From IMG/VR virus record IMGVR_UViG_3300050119_000076, positions 1 through 64,000 of that record: a DNA stretch of 64,000 nucleotides. One strand, 5' to 3'. Below are positions 1-52,190 of the stretch, one piece after another. The position numbers and the translations under genes are program-made. Every line of letters begins with the position of its first letter. The stretch's first letter is position 1. Source of the stretch: a virus. The notes beneath the pieces were generated by a model, which made no database searches, was not told where the DNA came from, and saw only the letters and a program-made list of their open reading frames with translations.

Positions 1-95
1 CCGCCGCCATCACCGACGACCAAATAGTCGATCGAGTAGACGCCGGTCGGGACGGTGAATGATGTACTGGAGTAAAAATACTGAAAGACGGCCAT
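1..95 (-). CDS. Tail protein with glycine-rich segment, N-terminal part (runs off the window)
   Basis: The minus-strand ATG at 95 follows a GAGGTAA ribosome site that overlaps the stop of the 306-residue gene upstream. The readable N-terminus begins MAVFQYFYSS, continues with a VPTGVYSIDYLVVGDGGG stretch and leaves the window at base 1. 'VPxGV.SIDYLVVGGGG' is the usual entry into glycine-rich domains of phage tail and adhesin proteins. A glycine-rich frame enters at the other end of the window (62356-64000) and may be the rest of this same gene on a circular map. The function as a tail component is inferred from this motif and the neighbours. Confidence 0.7.
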   Translation of the reverse strand, partial: MAVFQYFYSSTSFTVPTGVYSIDYLVVGDGG

Positions 96-99
96 CGGC

Positions 100-1020
100 T
101 TACCTCACTTCGAGGTCAGCCCATGAGCCCGTCAACGCGAAAGAGCCAGAGATGTTCAGCATTGGCAGCGGCCACATAGCGGCGAAGTTAGGCGTCACCA
201 TGAATATGCCGGTCTCGCAGATCATGCCGTTCGTCGGCGGTTCAATAAGTGGTATCAGTTCAATCTCAACCGCAGCTATCCATCGTGTATCCACGCATAA
301 ATCTGTCGTCCATGTAGCACCAGGCTTCTGAACAACAGCACCACTGTACTCCAACTCCAAGTCGAAAGAGTCGGCGAGCGAGAACACACCAGTCGCGGCG
401 ATGAGCTTACGGTTGTAGGCAACCTCGGCTGCCGCACCAGTCTCCACGAAAGTGCCGGTGGCCAACGGGATAGCCGGCGCGCCAATAGCAAGCATCTCGG
501 CGTGACCAGCCGCGGCAAAGACACCATCGGCGCCAACGAGTTGGTGGTTCCATTTAACGACAGCGGCTGAGCCAACCTCGGCAAAGACGCCAGTCGACAC
601 GGGAAAAAGTTTCGGCACGAGAATCGTTGCAGCGTGCGCGGTCTTGGCGAAGACACCAGTGGCGCCGGCCAGATGACGATTATACGCGAGCGTAGCAAAG
701 CCAGCGCACGAGAAGGAGGCATTATAAGCGGTGAGTGTCGGGGTCTTTTGAAGAACAGCAGCAGAGCCAGTAAGCGCGAACACACCCGTTGGAGGACCTG
801 TGGCTTTGTAGATGTGCTTGAAGGCGAGGCTCTCGGCGGTCTCGACGAACATACCCGTCAGCGCTACGATCGCCAGCGCGCGCACAACCACAATCGCTCT
901 GCCCGTCACTACGAACGAGCCAGTCGCTCCAGAGAGTTTACGGTTATACGCAAGCTTGTTCGGCGCGTAGGAACCAACGCCGAAGACACCAGTCGCAGCA
1001 GCGAGTGAATATGTCGACAT
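100..1020 (-). CDS. Repeat-rich tail protein (TGVFxxTGSAA repeats)
   Basis: A 306-residue protein made largely of about 20-25-residue units with the core [L/V]xGATGVFxxTGxAA, visible roughly ten times between residues 5 and 225. A non-repetitive part around residues 225-290 follows, and a last unit (ISGSFALTGSWA) closes it. The same unit makes up most of the protein at 62356-64000, so the two are paralogous tail or fibre components. Repeats of this kind usually form beta-rich rods in exposed virion proteins. No catalytic motif was seen. It lies between a tail-type gene (1034-1462) and the start of the glycine-rich tail gene at 95. The role as a tail fibre or tail surface protein is inferred. 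Confidence 0.75.
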   Translation of the reverse strand: MSTYSLAAATGVFGVGSYAPNKLAYNRKLSGATGSFVVTGRAIVVVRALAIVALTGMFVETAESLAFKHIYKATGPPTGVFALTGSAAVLQKTPTLTAYNASFSCAGFATLAYNRHLAGATGVFAKTAHAATILVPKLFPVSTGVFAEVGSAAVVKWNHQLVGADGVFAAAGHAEMLAIGAPAIPLATGTFVETGAAAEVAYNRKLIAATGVFSLADSFDLELEYSGAVVQKPGATWTTDLCVDTRWIAAVEIELIPLIEPPTNGMICETGIFMVTPNFAAMWPLPMLNISGSFALTGSWADLEVR

Positions 1021-15188: not shown

Positions 15189-17717
15189 TCATTGGAAATG
15201 ATATCCTCCGACTTTCCCCTGAATGGGGCGTCGTTCGCGCCGGTCGGTGACGGTCTCGCCTCTAGCACTACCACGTTCCCATTGACGATGGAAGTAGCGA
15301 CAGAGATAACCAAATCCATCACCTACGTGTGAGTATTCGTTTTTCTCCGGGGTCGGTTTTAGCTGGTCATTTTTGTTGGCGATCTTATCGTACCGCCAGC
15401 CACCCGCAAGCGCGCGACACAGCATCGGACACTCAGCCTTATCGATCAACAGCGCTGGACCCATGTCGGTCAGGCGGCTCGTGAAGCTCTCGATCGCATC
15501 GAGTCTCTTAGCTAAATGATTGTTAGTTTCGATTTTGACCTGAAAGTATTTTTTGAAGATGTCGACGACGGCAGCCTCGTCGGTTTGCACTCGGCTCGCA
15601 GACGCAGGATCAGGAGCGACGATAACTTCCGCACCAGGGAACCGATGTCGAAGGTAAGGTTTGACTTTATCCGTGATGAAGCGCGTGGCCCCCATGCCGC
15701 GCGCGGTGATTTCGCCGAGCACGAGAAGGCGCCCATAGAGATCTTCCTGGCCGAACACCATCGCGGTTCCCGCAAGACCAGGATCGAGCCCGGCAATCAG
15801 TGGGTACGCGGAATTGTAGAGCAGCGGCTTTTTCGATAAGTGTATGTCGGGCCGGAACGATCCGACCACCGGTCGACCACTCGCCGAGAAGCCCCACTCG
15901 GCGTCCAAGAACTGCTTGATCCACGCGCGCCCCTTACCAATCGCCTGATTCGTGTAGTAGGAATTATCACCGGCTATGAAAGGCGGCAGATGCGCTAAAT
16001 TCTCGGCGTTCGGGCCGAGCCCGCTCGGCTGCACGAAATAAGAAATGTTGCAGTCGGGTCGAAGTATCACGTGCCGCACCCGTGCGCAGTCTTCATCTTC
16101 ATACACATTGACGAGTTCAACCGTTTTCTCATCGTGCAGATAATCGTGCCACCAGTTGTCTTCCGTATCGGGGTTCGACGAACCCCACATCCCCCAATTC
16201 GTTGGCTCTCCGTACTTCTTCCAACGCCCTAGACGGCCGGACAGCGCATCGATAATCGACTTAGGGATTTGCACAAACTCGTCGATGATCGCGAACGTCA
16301 CTTCTAACGAGAGCACACGCCGAATGTCGTCCGCGGTATCGAGCGGGCGAAACAGAACTTCGCACTCGACATCATCGAACCGCAACATGAAGATACTATT
16401 CGTCGCCGACCAATGCCCGCAGACACCATCCTGAAACCAATAGCCCCACGAAACTAACGTCGTGTCGCGAAGCTGCGGCATGGTTTGCGAGCACCAAAAA
16501 GGCTTTCCATTGCGTCGAACATAGACCACGTGTGTCGGGACTTCGACGCAATACACCACGCCATCATACTCCTGCTCGTACCAACTCTCGGCACGCGGAC
16601 ACGGAGAGGCCCGCAGATCCGTTAGCAGCGTCACGGAGTACAGCACACCGCCGAAGAAACCACCTTGTGGTAGTGGCTGTGGGTCATTACGCCGGTCGCG
16701 ACAATACTGCGTTGTTGCGTAGCCCGCGAGAAACGCGATCTCCTGAAGATCGTCGGCAAGCTGCTTCGACGCGGTGTACACCCGTGTCGTGTCACATGCT
16801 GCGTTCTTTAGATGACCATCGCCCATAACAAACCCGTGCAAGAAAGCGCGCAGATGTTCAGGCGGCGCGTGCTTGATCCATAGTGGAATCGCTTTAGTGG
16901 TCGCTTTGCCACACGCAGCAAGCTCCTCACATAGCCGCGTCGTGCGGTCGTCCAGTCGAATCGTCAGATTGAAATTACCGTGACCTTTATCGTGCTCCCC
17001 CCATTCGAACCCGGCGCGACGCATCACGTCGCGCGCGTACTCAATCGCGACTTTCTGCGAGAGCACAAGTCGATGGTGCAGGCGAGGCTCGCGGTCGGGA
17101 TATGCATACACGCCTGCGTAACCTTCCGCGAACCAAAACCCGAGAAACTCAAACAGCTCCAGTGTGAACTTCGTCGTGCCATCCCAGCCGGCGGTCATCG
17201 AAAACTCGCGGTTGGTCTTGCCAAACGCGGCGGCACACGGCTCTAGTTTGTACGGCGCGCGCTCTTTGGTGCGACCGTTGATTGTCGCAGTCCACAAGTT
17301 ATGATCCGGCGTCACGAGAAAGTCGAGGTTCTGCTGCTTGCACCCGAGCATCTTTCCCCTGTACGGCGCGTGATAATGCAGCGTCGGCACGACAAACACA
17401 GTCTTCCCGTCCTGAAGCATTGCGACTCTATCGTCGTCCCGTAAATCGCGGAACAACTGCCAACCGCGTTGCTCGGTCAGAATCTCGGTCTGATCGTCGA
17501 AGCAGTTGCGAACGATCACCGCGCGAGTGTGGCGTATCCCATCCGGGGATGGTTCCTGCAACTTCGCCATATGCACGAGCTTAAAGAAAAGCGCGGTCGT
17601 CTTGCCGGCGCCAAGAGGACCGATGACCCAATCGTAGAATAGCGCGCCGTGAACGTAATGCCGGATAAACGCGCGTAGGGTCTTTGGAGGCTTATAATCG
17701 ATACCTTCATCACTCAC
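15189..17717 (-). CDS. terL: Terminase large subunit precursor, interrupted by an intein
   Basis: 842 residues encode a terminase of about 502 residues plus a 340-residue intein (residues 72-411). The terminase has Walker A GPLGAGKTT (33-41), a Walker B-like TFAIIDEF (about 475-482), and the nuclease residues IAGLDPGLAG (about 641-650) and HVGDGFGY (about 796-803). It packages phage DNA by ATP hydrolysis and cuts it. Joining the exteins restores AVIVRN-TMPQLRDTT, matching the family's conserved RNTYPxLRDTT. The GTG start overlaps the stop of the upstream membrane gene (GTGA). Protein splicing should be required for activity, as the insert falls between conserved ATPase motifs. Confidence 0.93.
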   Translation of the reverse strand: MSDEGIDYKPPKTLRAFIRHYVHGALFYDWVIGPLGAGKTTALFFKLVHMAKLQEPSPDGIRHTRAVIVRNCFDDQTEILTEQRGWQLFRDLRDDDRVAMLQDGKTVFVVPTLHYHAPYRGKMLGCKQQNLDFLVTPDHNLWTATINGRTKERAPYKLEPCAAAFGKTNREFSMTAGWDGTTKFTLELFEFLGFWFAEGYAGVYAYPDREPRLHHRLVLSQKVAIEYARDVMRRAGFEWGEHDKGHGNFNLTIRLDDRTTRLCEELAACGKATTKAIPLWIKHAPPEHLRAFLHGFVMGDGHLKNAACDTTRVYTASKQLADDLQEIAFLAGYATTQYCRDRRNDPQPLPQGGFFGGVLYSVTLLTDLRASPCPRAESWYEQEYDGVVYCVEVPTHVVYVRRNGKPFWCSQTMPQLRDTTLVSWGYWFQDGVCGHWSATNSIFMLRFDDVECEVLFRPLDTADDIRRVLSLEVTFAIIDEFVQIPKSIIDALSGRLGRWKKYGEPTNWGMWGSSNPDTEDNWWHDYLHDEKTVELVNVYEDEDCARVRHVILRPDCNISYFVQPSGLGPNAENLAHLPPFIAGDNSYYTNQAIGKGRAWIKQFLDAEWGFSASGRPVVGSFRPDIHLSKKPLLYNSAYPLIAGLDPGLAGTAMVFGQEDLYGRLLVLGEITARGMGATRFITDKVKPYLRHRFPGAEVIVAPDPASASRVQTDEAAVVDIFKKYFQVKIETNNHLAKRLDAIESFTSRLTDMGPALLIDKAECPMLCRALAGGWRYDKIANKNDQLKPTPEKNEYSHVGDGFGYLCRYFHRQWERGSARGETVTDRRERRPIQGKVGGYHFQ
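16485..17504 (-). mobile_element. Intein with LAGLIDADG homing endonuclease inside the terminase
   Basis: Terminase residues 72-411 (340 aa). Block A starts with Cys72 in CFDDQTEILTEQRGW; a block B-like TPDHNLW follows (137-142). The two DOD/LAGLIDADG helices are LGFWFAEGYAG (192-202) and LHGFVMGDGH (293-302), so this is a full intein with an endonuclease. The C-terminal end reads VYVRRNGKPFWCSQ followed by Thr+1. The last residue is therefore Gln rather than Asn, and the penultimate residue is Ser rather than His. Gln-ending and non-His inteins exist but are a minority. The insertion site is the conserved RN|T of the terminase ATPase domain. Confidence 0.88.
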
Positions 17718-32127: not shown

Positions 32128-32291
32128 GATATGTTCTTCTCACTCTTCTTCTAGCCTTTATTATCGGCCTTATGTTCTTTGCGCACGCGCCGGATGATCC
32201 GCGCTGGCATGAGCAACCAACACCACAATGCAAGTCCGGTTACGTGTTTGATCCTTGGCGGCGTTTTTGCGTGCCGGGATACGTTCCATGA
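32124..32291 (+). CDS. Small exported or membrane-anchored protein
   Basis: 55 residues: signal-like MRYVLLTLLLAFIIGLMFF, then a Cys-containing tail (CKSGYVFDPWRRFCVPGYVP) with two cysteines suited to a disulfide. ATGA overlaps on both sides; it immediately precedes the DNA polymerase. Confidence 0.6.
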   Translation: MRYVLLTLLLAFIIGLMFFAHAPDDPRWHEQPTPQCKSGYVFDPWRRFCVPGYVP

Positions 32292-33340
32292 AATGGCTAT
32301 CGCTAGATCTGGAAACTTCCGGCACACTGCCGGAGTACGCGCTGCAGCCGTGGCGCGTGCGGCAGAAGAAAGCTTGGATCACTACCTGCGCATACACGGT
32401 GCGCAACGGCGCGGACTTTGCATCGCGCGGGAAGATTTATCCGAGCTGCGCCGATCTGAGACGTATCCTTGAACGGGCGCACGAAGCTGGCTTTACGATC
32501 GTCGGTTGGAACGTGACTTTCGATATCGCATGGCTTCTTGCGTATGGATTGGGAGACATTGTGTTTAAGCTCCGATGGCTTGATGGAATGCGCCTCTGGC
32601 GTCATTACCACATGGAACCGGAGTACGACATGGACCGATCCAAAAAGAAATCCTACGGCTTGAAAACATGCGTCGCCGAGATCCTCCCGGACTTGGCAGG
32701 CTACGAAAATGGCATTGACTTTCAAACTGATGAACGCCCACATAGTGCAGAAGCCCTTAAACGCTTGCTCGCTTATAACAAGACCGACACGCTTGTAACG
32801 TACATGCTGGCCGGACATTGGTGGGGTCTACTCACTAAGCGGCAGCGATGCTGCGCGGGTCTTGAGGCGGCGGCTCTTCCTTTCGTGGCACAAGCTAATT
32901 TAGAGGGCGTGCGCGTTGATCGCGCGCGTCTAAAAGACTTGGACGACGAGCTTGTGGCGATAGCGGCCCAATGTGCGAAAGAGCTAGAGAGCGACGGCGT
33001 GACTCCCGCAGTTATCCGATCCCCCGTACAGCTACGCAAACTGCTATATGATGATTGGAAATTGCTGCCGCCTGACCCGCGCGACGTTCGTCTCACGCCG
33101 AAGGGCGATATGAGTACCGACAAGGCTGCGCTACACGAGCTTGCGCTGCTCGATCCGCGTGCTAGGCGTGTCCGCGATTACCGCGAGGCGCTTAACCTAC
33201 GCTCCAAGTTCATAGGCTCGCTATTCAAGTCGGCTGCCTACAACGATGAACATGATCGCACGCACCCCGAGGCTATTTTGTTCGGCACTTCCACCGGACG
33301 CATGACATATGCGTCATCGCAAGGGAAGGGGGCAAAGTGA
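32288..33340 (+). CDS. Family A DNA polymerase, N-terminal part (3'-5' exonuclease and thumb)
   Basis: 350 residues. The DEDDy proofreading exonuclease shows LDLETSG (Asp7, Glu9), NVTFDIAWL and YNKTDTLVTYML. A thumb-like region follows, and the protein ends within the conserved TGRMTYASSQGK before motif A, at a TGA. The polymerase catalytic core is in the next gene, which starts in the -1 frame with GTGA overlap. A purine-rich tract (AAGGGAAGGGGG, 33321-33332) just before the junction could serve as a ribosome site or a frameshift stimulator. The two parts together (about 630 aa) have the length of one phage PolA. Confidence 0.85.
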   Translation: MKWLSLDLETSGTLPEYALQPWRVRQKKAWITTCAYTVRNGADFASRGKIYPSCADLRRILERAHEAGFTIVGWNVTFDIAWLLAYGLGDIVFKLRWLDGMRLWRHYHMEPEYDMDRSKKKSYGLKTCVAEILPDLAGYENGIDFQTDERPHSAEALKRLLAYNKTDTLVTYMLAGHWWGLLTKRQRCCAGLEAAALPFVAQANLEGVRVDRARLKDLDDELVAIAAQCAKELESDGVTPAVIRSPVQLRKLLYDDWKLLPPDPRDVRLTPKGDMSTDKAALHELALLDPRARRVRDYREALNLRSKFIGSLFKSAAYNDEHDRTHPEAILFGTSTGRMTYASSQGKGAK

Positions 33341-34179
33341 AAGTCCAAACAGGGTTCGCCCTGCATCAAATGAAACGCGGCCCTAAGTTCCGCTCCGCTA
33401 TTATCCCCCCGCCCGGAGACGTGCTCCTAGAGTTCGACGCCGCTGGCCAAGAGTTCCGATGGATGGCGCTACAGTCTGGCGACCTGACGATGTTAAAACT
33501 CTGCCAGCCGGGGGAAGACCCGCATTGCTACATGGCCGCCGCGATCAAAGGTTGGGATTACGCTGAGATCATGCGTCTCCACAAAAGTGGAGACAATGTG
33601 GAGATTTCCGGGCCGCAGGGTGCTCGCATGTTCGGCAAGCTCGCGAATCTCTCGCTACAGTTCCGCACCTACGCGAAGCGACTGCGCATGGTCGCGCGAG
33701 TAGATTACGACCTGGCGATGAATCCTAGCGAGAGCGAGCATATATGGAGCACTTATCCTAGAACGTATCCACGCGTGAAAGATTACTGGTTTCTGAGTAT
33801 TGACAAGGCGAAGCGTCTTGGCTACGCAGAGACCCTCGCAGGTCGGCGCGTACAGATCGCGGGCGATTGGTCCGGCAAGCAATCTTGGGCGATGGAGAGC
33901 ACAGCCATTATAGTTCCCATCCAAGGGACCGGGGCCGATCAAAAATATCTTGCGTTAGCGTGCTTAAAGCCTTACCTTGTCGAACATGGTATCCGGTTCG
34001 CTTGGGACATGCATGATGGGCTTTACTTCTATTGCCCCGAGGCAAAAGCCGAGCGCGCACTAATTGATATAAAGGCGATCTTGGACAACCTACCTTATGA
34101 AGCTGCGTGGGGTTTCAAGCCGTCGATCCCGCTACCGTGGGACGCGAAGTCTGGCCCCTCATGGGGAGAATTAAAATGA
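33337..34179 (+). CDS. Family A DNA polymerase, catalytic part (palm and fingers)
   Basis: 280 residues from a GTG that overlaps the upstream TGA. Motif A is LLEFDAAGQEFR (Asp34, Glu39). A motif B region reads RMFGKLANLSLQFRTYAKRL. Motif C is WDMHDGLYF (about 224-232), with HDG in place of the usual HDE. The N-terminus VQTGFALHQMKRGPKFR normally continues directly from TGRMTY... of the upstream gene, so a -1 frameshift or association of two chains is needed to rebuild the enzyme. It replicates phage DNA together with the primase-helicase at 41829. Confidence 0.85.
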   Translation: MKVQTGFALHQMKRGPKFRSAIIPPPGDVLLEFDAAGQEFRWMALQSGDLTMLKLCQPGEDPHCYMAAAIKGWDYAEIMRLHKSGDNVEISGPQGARMFGKLANLSLQFRTYAKRLRMVARVDYDLAMNPSESEHIWSTYPRTYPRVKDYWFLSIDKAKRLGYAETLAGRRVQIAGDWSGKQSWAMESTAIIVPIQGTGADQKYLALACLKPYLVEHGIRFAWDMHDGLYFYCPEAKAERALIDIKAILDNLPYEAAWGFKPSIPLPWDAKSGPSWGELK

Positions 34180-44801: not shown

Positions 44802-45382
44802 TACCTACAGGCCCCGTTGAAGGTTCAGTAATGCAGTTTAAGAGCGGTCGGTATTTCGACATCCTTAAACCGTGGGATGAGCCTGACATCTTAGTTGACG
44901 ACCTCGCACACTCACTCTCTAATCTGTGCAGATACACTGGCCACTCGGCGAGAAATTATACCGTCGCCGAGCATTCCGTGTGGTGCAGTTATCTTGTGCC
45001 GGAGGAAGAGGCCTTTGACGCACTGATGCACGATACTGCCGAGATGATAACAGGCGACATCGCGAGCCCGTTCAAGTTTTGCCTTGGTGATACCTATAAA
45101 AAATTAGAGAAGCCGATCAATGAACGGTTGGCTCTGCAGTTCGATTTGCATTATCCGTGGTCGCAAGCAGTGCGGGACGCCGATCTTGCGATGCTCGCGG
45201 CGGAGCGTAGGCAACTCATGATGCCGATAGGTGAGTGGAAATGTTTGACCGGCGTGGTACCGGCTCCGATCGCAGTGGAGTGTTGGGAGCCGTGGCACGC
45301 TAAGGAAAAGTTCCTAAGCCGCCTGCGTGCGTTGGCCTATAGGCGCGGGCTGCATATTCCGCTTTTAGTGCGGAATATATAA
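44798..45382 (+). CDS. HD-domain deoxynucleotide hydrolase (DatZ/YfbR-like)
   Basis: 194 residues. HD-domain metal ligands appear as AHSLSNLCRYTGH (His38), VAEHSVWCSYLVP (His59), ALMHDTAEMITGDI (His78-Asp79, Asp87) and a downstream Asp in VRDADLAM. The family includes 5'-deoxynucleotidases and the phage dATP triphosphohydrolase DatZ. With the DUF5664 gene it could remove dATP or other dNTPs from the pool. No adenylosuccinate synthetase-like PurZ was seen in the window. It is the last plus-strand gene; a hairpin covers its end. Confidence 0.8.
   Translation: MIPTGPVEGSVMQFKSGRYFDILKPWDEPDILVDDLAHSLSNLCRYTGHSARNYTVAEHSVWCSYLVPEEEAFDALMHDTAEMITGDIASPFKFCLGDTYKKLEKPINERLALQFDLHYPWSQAVRDADLAMLAAERRQLMMPIGEWKCLTGVVPAPIAVECWEPWHAKEKFLSRLRALAYRRGLHIPLLVRNI
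45354..45378. terminator. Strong hairpin at the convergent junction
   Basis: Perfect 9-bp arms ATATTCCGC / GCGGAATAT with a 7-base loop over the last codons of the HD gene, 11 bases from the tRNA end on the other strand. There is no clear U-tract, but its place between converging transcripts suggests a terminator or RNA end-stabilising hairpin. Confidence 0.4.
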
Positions 45383-45388
45383 CATGAG

Positions 45389-45465
45389 TGGTCGCGCAGG
45401 ACAGATTCGAACTGTCGATTTCCTGGGTATGAGCCAGGCGAGATAGACCGCTTCTCTACCGCGCA
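45389..45465 (-). tRNA. tRNA-Met (CAT anticodon)
   Basis: A complete cloverleaf on the minus strand. The acceptor TGCGCGG pairs with CTGCGCG using two G-U pairs. The D-stem is GAGA/TCTC, the anticodon stem CCTGG/CCAGG with loop CTCATAC, and the T-arm GACAG-TTCGAAT-CTGTC. Discriminator A and encoded CCA complete it. The anticodon stem lacks the three G-C pairs of initiator tRNA and there is no 1-72 mismatch of the initiator type, so it is an elongator Met tRNA or an Ile2 tRNA if lysidine-modified. It lies 5 bases after the tmRNA end. Confidence 0.9.
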
Positions 45466-45469
45466 ATAA

Positions 45470-45800
45470 GTGGTGGAGCTTCTGTTGCTAGGTGCTCCAC
45501 CGAACCCCGACTCGATTACGCGGCTAAGCGCATCTCGTCATATGCGACATTATCGTTCGCATTTCCATGTTGGTCATTCACGGGAACCACCCCGAGCACA
45601 CTGTACACCTTACACGCCCGATCGAACCTGTTTCGCCCCCATCAAATACGCGATCACGTATAAAATGACCTTATACGTTCTCGCGTATATGGTGGAGGCG
45701 GCCGGTACTGCCCCGGCGTCTCGAACGCTTACGCTGCACGATTCAGCGCCATCTTCCGTTGCCAACAACGAAACTCTCGGTCAGGATAAGCCGCCTGACC
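45470..45800 (-). ncRNA. ssrA: Circularly permuted (two-piece) tmRNA
   Basis: Read on the minus strand, the acceptor piece comes first and ends GCCGG-GGCAGTA-CCGGC, CGCCTCC, A, CCA (45690). A 49-base spacer with a strong hairpin (45641-45689) follows. The coding piece then starts GGGGGCGAAACAGG at 45640. GGGGGCG pairs fully with CGCCTCC, including G3-U70, the alanyl-tRNA synthetase identity pair. The tag frame at 45560-45516 reads ANDNVAYDEMRLAA then TAA, the ANDN...LAA type of Alphaproteobacteria. This acceptor-spacer-coding order is the permuted alphaproteobacterial form. Outer ends are approximate; hairpins lie at 45779-45800 and 45471-45500. It tags stalled nascent proteins for degradation and rescues ribosomes. 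Confidence 0.92.
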
Positions 45801-45835
45801 TTATGAATGGGGCGCGCGGCCTCGCGCCGGTGACT

Positions 45836-46018
45836 TTAGTAGGTACCGCCCGGACCCAACAAGAGCCGGATGAGAATAATCCCCAAGATCACCAGAAGTA
45901 GCCACGCAACACCGCCGCCAACCGGGCCGCCGGGGATGCGATCACGGCCGACCCATAGGCCGCCGCTGCACACGATAATCCAAAGCACAGTAACAAGTAA
46001 AATGATTGACGGTTGCAT
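45836..46018 (-). CDS. Small two-span membrane protein
   Basis: 60 residues: MQPSIILLVTVLWIIVCSGG, a polar turn (RDRIPGGPVGGG) and WLLLVILGIILIRLLLGPGG. It resembles the 47-residue DUF3309-like protein at 20720-20863. It follows the 90-residue gene by 4 bases and is the last protein gene before the tmRNA. Confidence 0.65.
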   Translation of the reverse strand: MQPSIILLVTVLWIIVCSGGLWVGRDRIPGGPVGGGVAWLLLVILGIILIRLLLGPGGTY

Positions 46019-46022
46019 GATC

Positions 46023-46295
46023 TTAACCCTTCTCTTTGTCCGCGTCTCGAAGGGCGAGCACCTTAGCGCGCTCCTCAGATATTACTTCTTTTCCACCTGC
46101 GATCGTTATCAACTCGCCACGCCGGGGGAGCGGGAGCGTAGCGCGTACCAACTTAGCTAAAGAAAGAGCTTCCTTCTTGAAGGAAGGAGTCTTAAGCAAG
46201 TCCGCATCCACGAGCAAGTCACGGATAGCATCCGTGCGCCGCGCGATGACATCTTCCTGATACCCCGGCTCGTAGGCGTCAACGTCGTCGCTCAT
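46023..46295 (-). CDS. Small charged protein, unknown function
   Basis: 90 residues from MSDDVDAYEPGYQEDVIARR, with GAGGG 9 bases before the ATG. Mostly helical and charged, with no motif recognised. It lies between the phosphoesterase and the small membrane gene near the end of the late arm. Confidence 0.65.
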   Translation of the reverse strand: MSDDVDAYEPGYQEDVIARRTDAIRDLLVDADLLKTPSFKKEALSLAKLVRATLPLPRRGELITIAGGKEVISEERAKVLALRDADKEKG

Positions 46296-46332: not shown

Positions 46333-47718
46333 TTACGCCTCCGGGGAGGCGCTATCAAGTGACAAATCGAAGGGCACGGCCGAGATGTTCCGTAGGCGTT
46401 CCCCTAGATTCTTGTCGTAAGTGACTGCAGTCATTGATCTTCCTGCCCCACCGAAGCCCTTAGCGGCATGCCATGAGTCGGCTGGTGCAAGTGTCTGGAA
46501 TGTCTCGCAAACAACGCCTCCGACCTCTTTACAGAATTTTTCTGTGTGGTGGACGTGACCCCCTACCGCGTAGCGGAACCGGGTGCGGCCCCACATTGCC
46601 GGCTGGTGGGCGGCCATGATGCCTGGCATGTCCTTGATCTTCGCCATGTCGTTGTGCGTGCCAGCGAGCATCGTCAGACCGTGCTCTAAGTAGAAATAGC
46701 GAGACGAGCTGCAATGCACGATAACGCGAGGGTTGTTATGAAAGAACGCCCACATGGAAAGCTCCAGCGTGGGGGTCGACTCCGGGTCATGGTTGCCGGG
46801 CAGGCAACGTACCTCGACGGTCTCATGCTTAGTCAGCGCCAACTCGATGCATTGGACTAGCAGCATCACGCCGGCCTTATAAACTTTGGCGCGACGACTA
46901 TCGACATCGAGCGCGTGGCCACTTGCGGGCGTCTGGTTGTTCGAGCTATCGGCATGGAAGAAGTCTCCGAGCGAGACAACAATCGCGCGCTTTGAGTTTG
47001 GTGTGGCACGTACCAGATCGACCATTGCGTTCTGCAGGAGCTTGGTGCTGATCTTCAAGTCGTAATCGAAGCCTGTCTCTTCACGCCAGCTAAACATGCC
47101 GAGATGGTGATCCGCGATGTAGTACGCGGTCAGGTAATCATCGATCGTTTCTTCTGGCGCCGGGCCAAGCTCCGATCGGCCAGTGTACTCTTCGAATGCA
47201 GCCTTGACCGCCTCGATCGCGAGCACACGCTGCTCAGCTCCGGGCTTAGACTGTACCCACTTGCCGACAACTTTGTCATCGCGCACATACGCAGAGATTT
47301 TTGAAATCTCGTGATCTGGCGGTAGCTCGTAAATCTCGGTGTGTTCGGGCTTCTGCTGAATATACTCTTTGAGAAGGTTGCCATCGGGGTCGCGCGCCGT
47401 AGTGACTTGCGTCGTTTCGAAGCCTGGCAGGATGGGCTCGAATCCTAGTTTGCCCTTCTTCGCAGCGTAGGGGGGGTAGAGATCCCAATCAGGGCAGAAG
47501 TGCTGATTACCTTTTGCGCGGCGTCGCTCTTGTAGAGATACCCATTCGCAAATGGTTGACTTAGCGGTATTAGTGATGGCACCAGTGGACTTAAGGTGCT
47601 CGTAGGTCGCAGCAACGGCGCTGCCCTTACCATCCATGCCGCGGTACATCTTGTACGGGGCATAGCCTTCCGATAGGAACCGTTCGATGGTCCCTTTGAA
47701 AAGTTCGTCACGGGTCAT
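46333..47718 (-). CDS. Calcineurin-like metallophosphoesterase
   Basis: 461 residues. The C-terminal two thirds hold the dimetal phosphoesterase motifs YIADHHLG (about 199-206), SLGDFFHAD (about 246-254), LPGNHDPES (about 305-313) and GGHVHHTEK (about 383-391). The N-terminal 200 residues include a possible helix-turn-helix (AAATYEHLKSTGAITNTAKSTICEWVSL) and a linker domain. The family cleaves phosphate mono- or diesters, including nucleic acids. In phages such genes often lie at the end of the late region; the substrate here is unknown. Confidence 0.85.
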   Translation of the reverse strand: MTRDELFKGTIERFLSEGYAPYKMYRGMDGKGSAVAATYEHLKSTGAITNTAKSTICEWVSLQERRRAKGNQHFCPDWDLYPPYAAKKGKLGFEPILPGFETTQVTTARDPDGNLLKEYIQQKPEHTEIYELPPDHEISKISAYVRDDKVVGKWVQSKPGAEQRVLAIEAVKAAFEEYTGRSELGPAPEETIDDYLTAYYIADHHLGMFSWREETGFDYDLKISTKLLQNAMVDLVRATPNSKRAIVVSLGDFFHADSSNNQTPASGHALDVDSRRAKVYKAGVMLLVQCIELALTKHETVEVRCLPGNHDPESTPTLELSMWAFFHNNPRVIVHCSSSRYFYLEHGLTMLAGTHNDMAKIKDMPGIMAAHQPAMWGRTRFRYAVGGHVHHTEKFCKEVGGVVCETFQTLAPADSWHAAKGFGGAGRSMTAVTYDKNLGERLRNISAVPFDLSLDSASPEA

Positions 47719-47725
47719 GAGTTCC

Positions 47726-49936
47726 TCAAAGCATTGGTTGCTGTGGCATTGAAGCCATAGGCATGCTTGGCATTGCCGGCATTGTCAAGCCGGGAGGCGA
47801 CGCCATAGGAACGGCCGGCATGGATTTCGTTGACTTGCCAGCCTTCGCAGATTTCACCTTCGTGGTGCCCTTGGCGTAACCTGAGGGCTTCTTGTCCGGC
47901 ATACCGCCTGCCGTACCGGCTCCCTTGACAGTGGCCTTAGCAAGCTGTGGCGTGGCCATTGCGGCCGCGCCAGCCCGAGCACCCTCATTGGTAGTGCTGC
48001 CCATTGAATACACTTCATCGACACCATCCGCGAAACCTTGTGGCGCTGTCACACGAATGCTTGGGTCTCCGCCAGTGTTGATGCTGAAGCCCCCAGGAGC
48101 CCGCACACCGGCAAGGTACGCCGCAGTGTTAGCATCAGGGGCGCCCGAGCCAAGGCCGCTACCGACCGGCTGAAAGCTTGCTTCTTGTGCCGCGCGCATC
48201 GCGCCTAGCGAGGGTGCTATTGACATCCCCATACCGGGTGAAAAGCCGGCTGATGCGAATGGAGGCGGAACAGCAGCCGGAGCAATCGGCGCTACGCGCC
48301 CAAGCCCATCAGTCGGTTGCGCCTGGAGCAATCCGCCCGGTCCGGCCTGCGCTGCACGAGGGGCCTGAGGGGATGCAAGCTGATTTAGATAGCTGCCGAG
48401 GTTGTCATAGCGTGGCATGCCCCGACTATCTCGGCCTTTGTATGGTGTGTTGGTGCTGTACACATCCTCGCCAATGTTCGCGTCGCCGTCAGCAAAGCCA
48501 GGAACGCCGCCACGAATAACCTGTGGCAGCGGTGCTCTTGCGGCGGGCGCAGGACCATAGCCGCCGTCAGATGCGATCGGGTCTTCAGCACGCGTCTCAG
48601 AGACCAAAGGAATCGTCGTATAGCCCTGCGTGAACGGGTTCTTTCCATCCAGGAGGCCGCCACCTAGTCCGATCGGGCCACCGTTCGCTTCCATCTTGCC
48701 GACAACATCTGGAGTACCGTCAGCGTAGAAACGCGCGAAAGGCACCATGCCGCCGAGAGCCAACTGCATAACGGGTGTGTCGCCGCCTGTCGGCGTTTGT
48801 GGCGCGCGACTCTTGGATATTTTCGTGGCGCCCGTCGCGTGGCCTGGAGGGGTTTTCTCTTTCTTCGAAAGCTCTTTGGGATTGGTACGCGGAAGATTCT
48901 GTGATGCGAAGTCAGCGCCTGTCAGGGGTGCGCGGCCAGCGTCCGTGCCGCCACCATCGCGCATCGTCGGAGCGGCCTTCTTCGGAGCAGCCTGTACTTT
49001 CTTTCGACTAGCCGCCTGCGCCGCGGGCTGACCGCCCGTGCCTCCGGCGTTCGTCGCGGCCATACGCATGAGGCCGATCTTGTTGAGATGCTCGATGATG
49101 CCGCGGCCAACGTGCTCCGCTGCGCCCTTGTTGAGCACTGCTTCACCCGGCGATAGCATGGCTGGCACAATATCAGTCGGACCGGCCTTTGATCCCTTAG
49201 CCGGTAGCCCCTTGCCGGAAGCCTTCTGAGAAGGCTTCTGAGTGTCTGCGGTGCCCTTGGCCCACTGTGCGATCCCCGTGTAACCGGCGCCAGTCGATTC
49301 GGGTGTCTGTGGCTGTGGCGTATAAACGCTAGAATTAGGGTCCGGCGCGGGTGTGCCTCCTTCCTGAGCTATATGGCCGAGGGCTTGTCCGTTCTGAATT
49401 TGATCGTCGGTCAGTCCGTACATACGTGCTTGTGCGACTGTCAACATAGTTTTGCCACTTGCAGCCTCGCCTTGTTTCTGACGCAGAGACTCCAAAGATG
49501 GCATCGCGCCTATCTGCGCTGCGCGTAGACCTACGAGAGACGGCGCAACTTCAGCCTGAGCCTGCGAAAGCGCGCCAGTACCCATCTGTGCAATCGCCTC
49601 GGCTGGGATACCAATTCGTGCCTGTGCCTCACGAAGCATAGCTTCGGAGGGGGTTGCGAATGCTTGCTGTGTCGTAAGGCCAGCCTGTGCATTGCGCATG
49701 GCGATATCGGCTGCGGACACGGGACCTAGGGTCTTGCCTTGTTCGCGGGTTGTGAAGGCCGATGCACGCTCGGCTGCTTGCTGAGCCTCCGCGGTCGGTC
49801 CGAACTGCGCGGCCTGCTCGCCAGTCAGGGCGGCCTGCGCTCTCACGACTTGAGCTTGCGCCAAATTCGCGGGAATGCGCGATGCCGCTTCAGCACCTAG
49901 CTGTTTCTGATAGGTAGAGAGATCGCCCATCGCCAT
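47726..49936 (-). CDS. Virion protein with tape-measure-like motif
   Basis: 736 residues. The N-terminal 200 are Ala/Gln-rich helices (QLGAEAASRIPANLAQAQVVRAQAALTGEQAA). Around 250 comes TDIVPAMLSPGEAVLNKGAAEHVGRG, a motif shared with phage tail tape-measure and internal virion proteins (VPAMLxPGExVlNKxAxxxxG). The rest is Gly/Pro/Ala-rich with several copies of ADGxxxV-like short units. No enzyme domain was seen. An internal or tail structural role is inferred from the motif and its neighbours. Confidence 0.65.
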   Translation of the reverse strand: MAMGDLSTYQKQLGAEAASRIPANLAQAQVVRAQAALTGEQAAQFGPTAEAQQAAERASAFTTREQGKTLGPVSAADIAMRNAQAGLTTQQAFATPSEAMLREAQARIGIPAEAIAQMGTGALSQAQAEVAPSLVGLRAAQIGAMPSLESLRQKQGEAASGKTMLTVAQARMYGLTDDQIQNGQALGHIAQEGGTPAPDPNSSVYTPQPQTPESTGAGYTGIAQWAKGTADTQKPSQKASGKGLPAKGSKAGPTDIVPAMLSPGEAVLNKGAAEHVGRGIIEHLNKIGLMRMAATNAGGTGGQPAAQAASRKKVQAAPKKAAPTMRDGGGTDAGRAPLTGADFASQNLPRTNPKELSKKEKTPPGHATGATKISKSRAPQTPTGGDTPVMQLALGGMVPFARFYADGTPDVVGKMEANGGPIGLGGGLLDGKNPFTQGYTTIPLVSETRAEDPIASDGGYGPAPAARAPLPQVIRGGVPGFADGDANIGEDVYSTNTPYKGRDSRGMPRYDNLGSYLNQLASPQAPRAAQAGPGGLLQAQPTDGLGRVAPIAPAAVPPPFASAGFSPGMGMSIAPSLGAMRAAQEASFQPVGSGLGSGAPDANTAAYLAGVRAPGGFSINTGGDPSIRVTAPQGFADGVDEVYSMGSTTNEGARAGAAAMATPQLAKATVKGAGTAGGMPDKKPSGYAKGTTKVKSAKAGKSTKSMPAVPMASPPGLTMPAMPSMPMASMPQQPML

Positions 49937-50129: not shown

Positions 50130-52190
50130 TCACTCCGTAGAAGCAATGTTGAGGTTGGTGTTGTTGGACTGGCTCACGCTCTCCTGGCTCTCGCCGATAT
50201 TAGAGGCCGTCTGCGAGGCGCTGTTGCTCGTCTGGTTGCTATTGATGAACTCCGTAACGTCGCTCCGGCTAACCTGCCAGCTAGACGAAGATCCGAAGTT
50301 GACGTTGTCCTGACGTGCGCGATGGCTTGCCCATGTAACGGAGCCGAGTGCCGATGCAGCGATTTGAGCCTCAACCTGCGCGCCTACCTTGGCAGCATCG
50401 GTCGCGATCGACTTGGCCGTCATATAAAGCTGCGCGTTCATATTGGCAGCCGAGACACCGACTTGCGTAGCCTGCAGCGCCTCATCTAGCGCAGCCTGCC
50501 ACTCCTTGATAATCGCGTCGTTGTACGCACTGGTGCCGGAAACCTCCGACGCATAGATGCGCGCGGTTGCTTCATTCTGCGCGGCTATGGCCTGCACTTG
50601 TGCAGACTGACCAACGACCAGGGCTTTATAACCTTCGTACTCGGCCACGTAAGCATCAAGTTGCGCTTTGTAGACAGCGATATTTTCGTCGATCTCTTTG
50701 GCAACGGCCGTAACCTGCGTAGAGAAGACATCAGCCTGCGTCCCGAAGACCTGCTCCTTGACCTGCTCGCCTTGCAGCAGCGCCTTATAGGCTTCGACGT
50801 TCGCCGTATAGGCGTTGATCTGCGCGGCGTAGGCAGCCACTTCCTGCCCGAAAATTTGCACCTTGAGGCTCTCGACCTGTGCCTCGACCTGGATAATCTG
50901 GATCTCGCCCTTGAAGACCTCGATCGATGCCAGCGCAGCGTCGACCTCGACTTTGTACTGCTGGACCAAGGCCGTGTTCATTTGAACCTTGACCATCTCG
51001 GCTTCAAGCTCGGCGCGGTACGCTGCCACTAAAGCCATCTGCCCCTGGATCTTTGCGTTGTAGATGTCGATCGTGGCACGATACACGGCGACCTGTGCTG
51101 TAAACGCTTGGATCTGCGCGTTGTAGATCGCGACACCGGCATCGGTCATATACTTACATGTCTCGAAGCGGCGTTGCTCGGTCTGGTTGGCGTAGTCGAT
51201 CAGCTTGCCCTCAAGCTGTGTCGCACTATCCAGCGCCATCTTGATATTATCTTGTTCAAGTTTGGCCTGAGCGACAGCAATATCTCGCGATGATCCAACC
51301 AACACAAAGGCCAGTTCAGTTTGGATCTTGATCTGCGCGTCAATAAACACACCGGGCGGGAAGGCGTAGCCCATCGTCTCCATGCGATCTAGTGCGGCGA
51401 TTGCGTCGCCCGCCTGCTTCATTTCCCGCTCACGTTCACGATTCCAGATGTTCTCTTCGATCGCGGGCGGCAGGCCGGTGTTAGTTCCCGTGTTGCCAAT
51501 GTCGAGACGCTGTAGCAGCGTCGCTTGCATCTCGCTAAGAAGAGCATCGGTGTACGGGGCGTTGGGGATATAGTCCACGATGCCAGGGGAGACAATCGTC
51601 AGTACCGGCGCTGTCGCGCTTAGCGTCGGCAGCGTCACGCCGCCGAAGGCATAGGTCTGCAATGATAAGAGGCTAGGCGGCGCCGGGAGATCCACGCTGA
51701 CCGTCGGGTACGTGAAGTTGGTATCGATCGCCGGCGCGCCAGGCTCCACTAAGAAAGGTTGCGGGGGCGCATTGGGAAAGTTGATCGTCGGAGGCGTCGC
51801 CGTGAACAGCGGGAACACGTCCGTGATCGCGAGCTGCGCGTTGAACGCCGCCGGAATAGGTGGCGCGCTCCACACAATAGGCTCGACAACTGGAGGCGCC
51901 GGTACGGTGACGGCAGGCCCTAGGGTGTTGATCGGGTAAACTGGCGTGATGACTGGCGGCACAAGAGATAAGGCCAGCGTCCCAAGCTGCTGAATGTAGC
52001 TGTCCGCGGTAGCAGCATGATCTTCGGCAAAAGTAGTGACGTCCTGCGCGCCGATGAAATCTTGTTCAATCGGCAGGATGACTGGCGGCGACGGCGGTAG
52101 CGGCGGCACTGGTACGGGAGACGACGGAGTCGTCGGCTTCAGCGGCGGCACTGCTGTCGGTGGCGGGACGGGGATATAGAGATCGACCAT
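50130..52190 (-). CDS. Long coiled-coil virion protein
   Basis: 686 residues. Residues 1-60 are Pro-rich. The middle (about 330-560) is a long helical array of units like AxVAxYxAxIxAYxAxIQGE (examples VAVYRATIDIYNAKIQGQM and VAAYAAQINAYTANVEAY), predicted coiled coil. The C-terminal 60 residues are Ser/Asn/Gln-rich. Such proteins are internal or tail-tube-like components in short-tailed phages. No catalytic motif was seen. Confidence 0.7.
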   Translation of the reverse strand: MVDLYIPVPPPTAVPPLKPTTPSSPVPVPPLPPSPPVILPIEQDFIGAQDVTTFAEDHAATADSYIQQLGTLALSLVPPVITPVYPINTLGPAVTVPAPPVVEPIVWSAPPIPAAFNAQLAITDVFPLFTATPPTINFPNAPPQPFLVEPGAPAIDTNFTYPTVSVDLPAPPSLLSLQTYAFGGVTLPTLSATAPVLTIVSPGIVDYIPNAPYTDALLSEMQATLLQRLDIGNTGTNTGLPPAIEENIWNREREREMKQAGDAIAALDRMETMGYAFPPGVFIDAQIKIQTELAFVLVGSSRDIAVAQAKLEQDNIKMALDSATQLEGKLIDYANQTEQRRFETCKYMTDAGVAIYNAQIQAFTAQVAVYRATIDIYNAKIQGQMALVAAYRAELEAEMVKVQMNTALVQQYKVEVDAALASIEVFKGEIQIIQVEAQVESLKVQIFGQEVAAYAAQINAYTANVEAYKALLQGEQVKEQVFGTQADVFSTQVTAVAKEIDENIAVYKAQLDAYVAEYEGYKALVVGQSAQVQAIAAQNEATARIYASEVSGTSAYNDAIIKEWQAALDEALQATQVGVSAANMNAQLYMTAKSIATDAAKVGAQVEAQIAASALGSVTWASHRARQDNVNFGSSSSWQVSRSDVTEFINSNQTSNSASQTASNIGESQESVSQSNNTNLNIASTE

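Follow-up and report, generated by a model that had tools for sequence, protein, structure and literature searches.

A circularly permuted tmRNA gene was identified on the minus strand of the IMG/VR virus IMGVR_UViG_3300050119_000076 (record length, 64,536 bp), of which positions 1 to 64,000 were analyzed and are referred to here as the window. The parts of the gene and the features around it are listed in Table 1. According to cmscan analysis, the gene matched the Rfam model alpha_tmRNA (RF01849) from model position 1 to 355 of 355 with 134.3 bits (E value, 1.8e-36) and the model tmRNA_permuted (RF04321) with 114.8 bits, the gathering cut-offs of these models being 50 and 47 bits, respectively. 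A chance match was considered and rejected. The phage gene is a complete circularly permuted two-piece tmRNA of the alphaproteobacterial type. This identity had been proposed in a first-pass annotation, with a covariance-model search as its check; all of the elements named there are present, the RF01849 match is significant, and the identity was not refuted. The locus given there is also correct, but its limits (45470–45800) are replaced by the slightly wider match of 45469–45811.

Table 1. Features of the tmRNA gene and its surroundings (window coordinates).
Feature	Position	Strand	Remarks
Whole permuted tmRNA gene	45469..45811	-	RF01849 match; 5' limit may include a leader
Acceptor piece (5' part of gene), ends in encoded CCA	45690..45811	-	Mature 5' end outside the prediction
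Hairpin GGTCAGG-CGGCTTAT-CCTGACC, 5' side of gene	45779..45800	-	Sequence
Hairpin TTCGTTG-TTGG-CAACGGA, acceptor piece	45755..45772	-	At the site of the model's 5' stem-loop
T arm GCCGG-GGCAGTA-CCGGC	45701..45717	-	Model match
Acceptor 3' strand CGCCTCC + A + CCA	45690..45700	-	U70 pairs with G3
Intervening spacer, 49 nt, single long hairpin	45641..45689	-	-21.5 kcal/mol; expected to be removed
Coding piece (3' part of gene)	45470..45640	-	Mature 3' end outside the prediction
Acceptor 5' strand GGGGGCG	45634..45640	-	Pairs with CGCCTCC
Tag frame ANDNVAYDEMRLAA + stop TAA	45516..45560	-	ARAGORN, sequence
3' terminal hairpin, conserved CCTaGCAACAGAA loop	45470..45500	-	Model match, fold
tRNA-Met (CAU)	45389..45465	-	3 nt beyond the RF01849 match; the tmRNA 3' end may be set by 5' processing of this tRNA
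60-aa hydrophobic ORF, upstream on the tmRNA strand	45836-46018	-	Read from sequence
90-aa ORF, upstream on the tmRNA strand	46023-46295	-	Read from sequence
DNA repair exonuclease, upstream on the tmRNA strand	46333-47718	-	

Read along the minus strand, the acceptor piece with its encoded CCA is followed by the spacer and then by the coding piece, which is the permuted order. The two acceptor strands form 7 of 7 pairs, including G3-U70, and the tRNA-like domain consists of this stem and the T arm without an anticodon arm. The stem pairing, the CCA end of the acceptor piece, the spacer of exactly 49 nt and the tag frame with its stop codon had all been described in the first-pass annotation and were borne out. 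The conserved CCUgGCAACAGAA hairpin is present at the 3' end of the coding piece, and the D-loop reads TTCGAT, the commoner form in the phage set being ATCGAC. For the whole precursor, a folding energy of -144.6 kcal/mol was obtained, with z = -5.7 relative to dinucleotide-shuffled sequences; the fold displayed the acceptor stem and the T arm, with the spacer hairpin enclosed by a long P2-like helix. ARAGORN did not call a tmRNA at this position under default settings; when the score threshold was lowered to 90%, the gene was called as permuted with the tag ANDNVAYDEMRLAA. Routine annotation could therefore overlook it. Compared with alphaproteobacterial ssrA (RF01849, RF04321), the phage gene has in common the permuted order, the G3-U70 stem, the T arm, the encoded CCA, the spacer, an ANDN...AA tag and, in the coding piece, the conserved 3' hairpin. 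It differs in belonging to a phage in which no smpB was detected, in adjoining a tRNA-Met and in having a tag absent from the genomes scanned.

The ends of the record (window 1–188 and record 64349–64536) overlap by 188 nt with 99.5% identity, which suggests that the genome is complete and either circular or terminally redundant; the 64.5-kb record appears to represent a phage genome that is nearly complete. Minus-strand genes lie at both record ends, and many of them encode virion proteins (head-tail adaptor, major head protein, tail and head-closure proteins). When the record is read as a circle, these genes become a single block that closes with the tmRNA and the tRNA. The earlier placement of the tmRNA at the end of a late operon is thus a fair reading, with the block presumably read as one transcript. 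An assembly chimera with host DNA was considered because the record is metagenome-derived. It was rejected as scarcely credible, since the tmRNA is flanked by phage genes on either side, the ends of the record overlap and the exact core pattern of the tmRNA was not found in approximately 85,000 genomes.

Three other genes of the window were recorded in passing. A terminase-like gene (15189–17717, minus strand) carries an intein-like insert; it has a Walker A motif near its start and reads VRN, then CFDDQTEILTE...PFWCSQ, then TMPQLRDTT, with a sub-threshold LAGLIDADG_3 match. A DNA polymerase (32255–34179, plus strand) is split over two overlapping ORFs, which match successive segments of phrog_17 (668–979 and 979–1233). 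A 237-aa phage protein (24960–25673, plus strand) has an N-terminal NikA-like mobilisation-protein domain.

SmpB (PF01668) was absent from the record in a search whose positive controls worked; the phage tmRNA would therefore need host SmpB. This lowers the case for tmRNA and SmpB as a self-contained phage system and leaves the identity of the tmRNA unaffected. It is reported that tmRNA genes are common integration sites (PMC11915505), and the phage might on that ground carry tmRNA sequence only through integration into host ssrA. The gene is complete rather than a fragment; the ORFs scanned, which took in part of the small ones, yielded no integrase, nor does one adjoin the gene. An attachment-site remnant is therefore very improbable and was rejected.

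On the opposite strand, a convergent block of DNA polymerase, helicase and primase genes ends at position 45382 with a deoxynucleotidase-like gene, facing the tRNA-Met that abuts the tmRNA. A direct tmRNA-tRNA tandem was also found in seven other IMG/VR contigs from four tag groups among the matches listed (L003, L010, L053, L055, L079, L084 and L107), with tRNA-Pro, -Cys, -Trp or -Arg; together with the tRNA-Met pair at window 45389–45811, five different tRNAs occur in tandems. The distance from GGGGGCG to the tRNA is 149–176 nt in the tandems and 175 nt in this phage. The 5' processing of the abutting tRNA likely helps to make the 3' end of the tmRNA.

Relatives of the phage, as recognized by the major capsid protein, are abundant in IMG/VR, and 80 with 68–79% identity were retained. 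A tmRNA of either the permuted or the one-piece form was detected in none of 47 related records (E ≤ 0.001), four of which are 61–64 kb long and many of the others fragments. The gene is accordingly dispensable in the group. After its primase gene, the near-complete relative G027 carries other small genes and, beyond them, a convergent homologue of window 50130–52190; at the same junction, a partial homologue of window 47726–49936 occurs in several relatives. These differences in gene order mark the stretch with the nucleotidase, tRNA, tmRNA and exonuclease genes as a variable junction, and the tmRNA is most readily explained as a sporadic gain. No close relatives were confirmed through the exonuclease gene. 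The tmRNA core with the CAGGTTCGA(T) form of the D-loop was found neither in viral contigs nor in approximately 85,000 genomes. BLAST of the tmRNA gave no match to plasmids and, among named phages, only a 32-nt match in the T arm and acceptor region of Erythrobacter phage vB_EliS-L02.

A scan with consensus promoters revealed no promoter-like site at the 5' side of the tmRNA. Among the matches listed, 52 of the 80 non-redundant loci from phages have TATAAATA 56–73 nt ahead of CCTCCACCA (approximately 1% in shuffles), and 42 of the 80 have TTGAY-N15-20-TATA(A/T/G)AT at the 5' side of the gene, in a sample that leans towards mutual relatives. This phage has neither motif at the 5' side of its tmRNA; the outermost 5' hairpin (Table 1) occupies the place where most other sampled copies carry a promoter-like motif. 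The TATAAATA motif could be a promoter or, in part, a conserved segment of the RNA itself; it equals the T4 late-promoter consensus, often with TTGAC upstream (loci L002–L120). The missing motif fits read-through from upstream.

The same absence would also be expected of a passenger, that is, a captured tmRNA gene with little or no transcription that has no role or is starting to decay, and the lack of a tmRNA in all 47 related records searched points in the same direction. The structural elements tested and the tag frame are, however, all intact despite strong divergence, which argues against decay because a decaying copy would have lost parts, and the searches made found no close copy in genomes, plasmids or named phages. 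A passenger gene is therefore considered unlikely.

The tag ANDNVAYDEMRLAA begins with the resume alanine codon, keeps the ANDN start and ends in a hydrophobic LAA before the stop codon. When degenerate codons for ANDNVAYDEM were searched, no match was found in 2.9 million viral contigs or in approximately 85,000 genomes of bacteria and archaea. Among the matches listed, with this phage included, the 104 complete phage tags of the ANDN type all end in Ala-Ala, and 47 of the 53 distinct ones end in LAA. Fifteen phage tmRNAs that appeared to be tagless were rejected as such: 14 phage loci among the matches listed have variant tag starts, such as ANNNNFALAA (read by eye), and the 15th is cut by a contig end. 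Unusually long tags of 29 and 31 amino acids (ANDNALSNVTFVDFSAPVTAVNEDFALAA; ANDNVAQPKFMKKRNTFARKVGFTKGMALAA) were observed in L020, L022, L039, L045 and others, and in L032, L100 and L113.

A C-terminal LAA is a signal for ClpX. The degron-like end thus favours ordinary rescue and degradation over diverted tagging and argues that the present tag would be degraded in the ordinary way by host proteases; the retention of such ends across complete phage tags argues for phage tmRNAs being maintained as functional tagging RNAs. The first-pass annotation had suggested that the phage might divert host tagging by using its own tag, a proposal that is unsupported and has no positive evidence. More broadly, the RNA could act as a decoy that competes with host tmRNA for SmpB, or its tag could give proteins a different fate. 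Mycobacteriophage DS6A offers a precedent with an RNA consisting of the tRNA-like domain only, and such molecules inhibit tmRNA (PMC4131195); the present tag, moreover, was found nowhere else in the viral contigs and genomes scanned. The phage RNA retains a full mRNA-like part together with its LAA end, and the uniform Ala-Ala ends of the other ANDN-type tags point the same way. A decoy or diverter is thus quite improbable.

The two-piece form had also been regarded as unusual in phages, and this view does not hold. In a previous study of 18,146 phage genomes, 402 were reported to hold tmRNAs, which amounted to 133 unique structures, 53 of them two-piece by ARAGORN (PMC9004378); because default ARAGORN missed the present gene, counts based on this program may be low. 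A strict survey pattern (CCTCCACCA, 25–55 nt, GGGGGCGAAANAGG) matched at least 119 IMG/VR contigs, a contig count with redundancy included, and 20 of 20 sampled matches exceeded the Rfam cut-offs. Some of these alphaproteobacterial-type contigs share tRNA abutment with the present phage as well as the gene form; the TATAAATA motif, present in 52 of the 80 non-redundant loci, is a difference from it. In the cultured Erythrobacter phage vB_EliS-L02 (OL955261.1, ~75719–76127; L213:2920–3328), an unannotated permuted tmRNA (RF04321, 91.9 bits) closely follows a large cluster of likewise unannotated tRNA genes.

The tmRNAs of mycobacteriophages and Bacillus phage G are of the one-piece form. They are likewise phage-borne but belong to other hosts, and the comparison with them is by description only. 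Both are listed as ssrA-bearing phages (PMC4131195), and tmRNA genes of unspecified form are present in Bradyrhizobium elkanii phages (PMC12656738). Like the present phage, Methylophilales phage Melnitz (141.5 kb; Kyanoviridae in its record) carries a complete two-piece tmRNA of the alphaproteobacterial type (PMC9004378). The Melnitz ssrA is tied to a glutamine riboswitch, and its authors inferred early expression (PMC9004378), whereas here no riboswitch was matched and the tmRNA gene closes the late gene block. A glutamine riboswitch match was also observed within 2 nt after another phage tmRNA (L016:2466–2836).

Overall, the gene very probably yields a functional phage-borne two-piece tmRNA that works with the host rescue machinery; we infer its transcription, processing, charging, function and timing from the gene and its context. 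The gene would be transcribed on the minus strand, with read-through from the late genes as the probable source. The precursor would be cut by host tRNA-processing enzymes after the encoded CCA and before GGGGGCG, releasing the hairpin spacer, and cleavage at the 5' end of tRNA-Met would help to define where the coding piece ends on its 3' side. Both pieces would remain base-paired to each other, be charged with alanine and bind host SmpB, and stalled ribosomes would be rescued during infection, with a degradation tag added for host proteases to read. A more speculative extension, which we hold only tentatively, is that phages have repeatedly put a two-piece tmRNA before a tRNA so that tRNA 5' processing makes the tmRNA 3' end, and that the promoterless pair at the end of the late operon here may serve late rescue, opposite to the early timing inferred for Melnitz.

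These findings add a clean, complete two-piece tmRNA to a 64-kb phage group in which no other was seen, and the side survey suggests that such genes are numerous in environmental phages. The degron-like tags in all complete copies among the matches listed point to real trans-translation during infection, and the recurrent tandem with tRNA genes and the differing promoter contexts provide testable clues as to when ribosome rescue is needed by phages.
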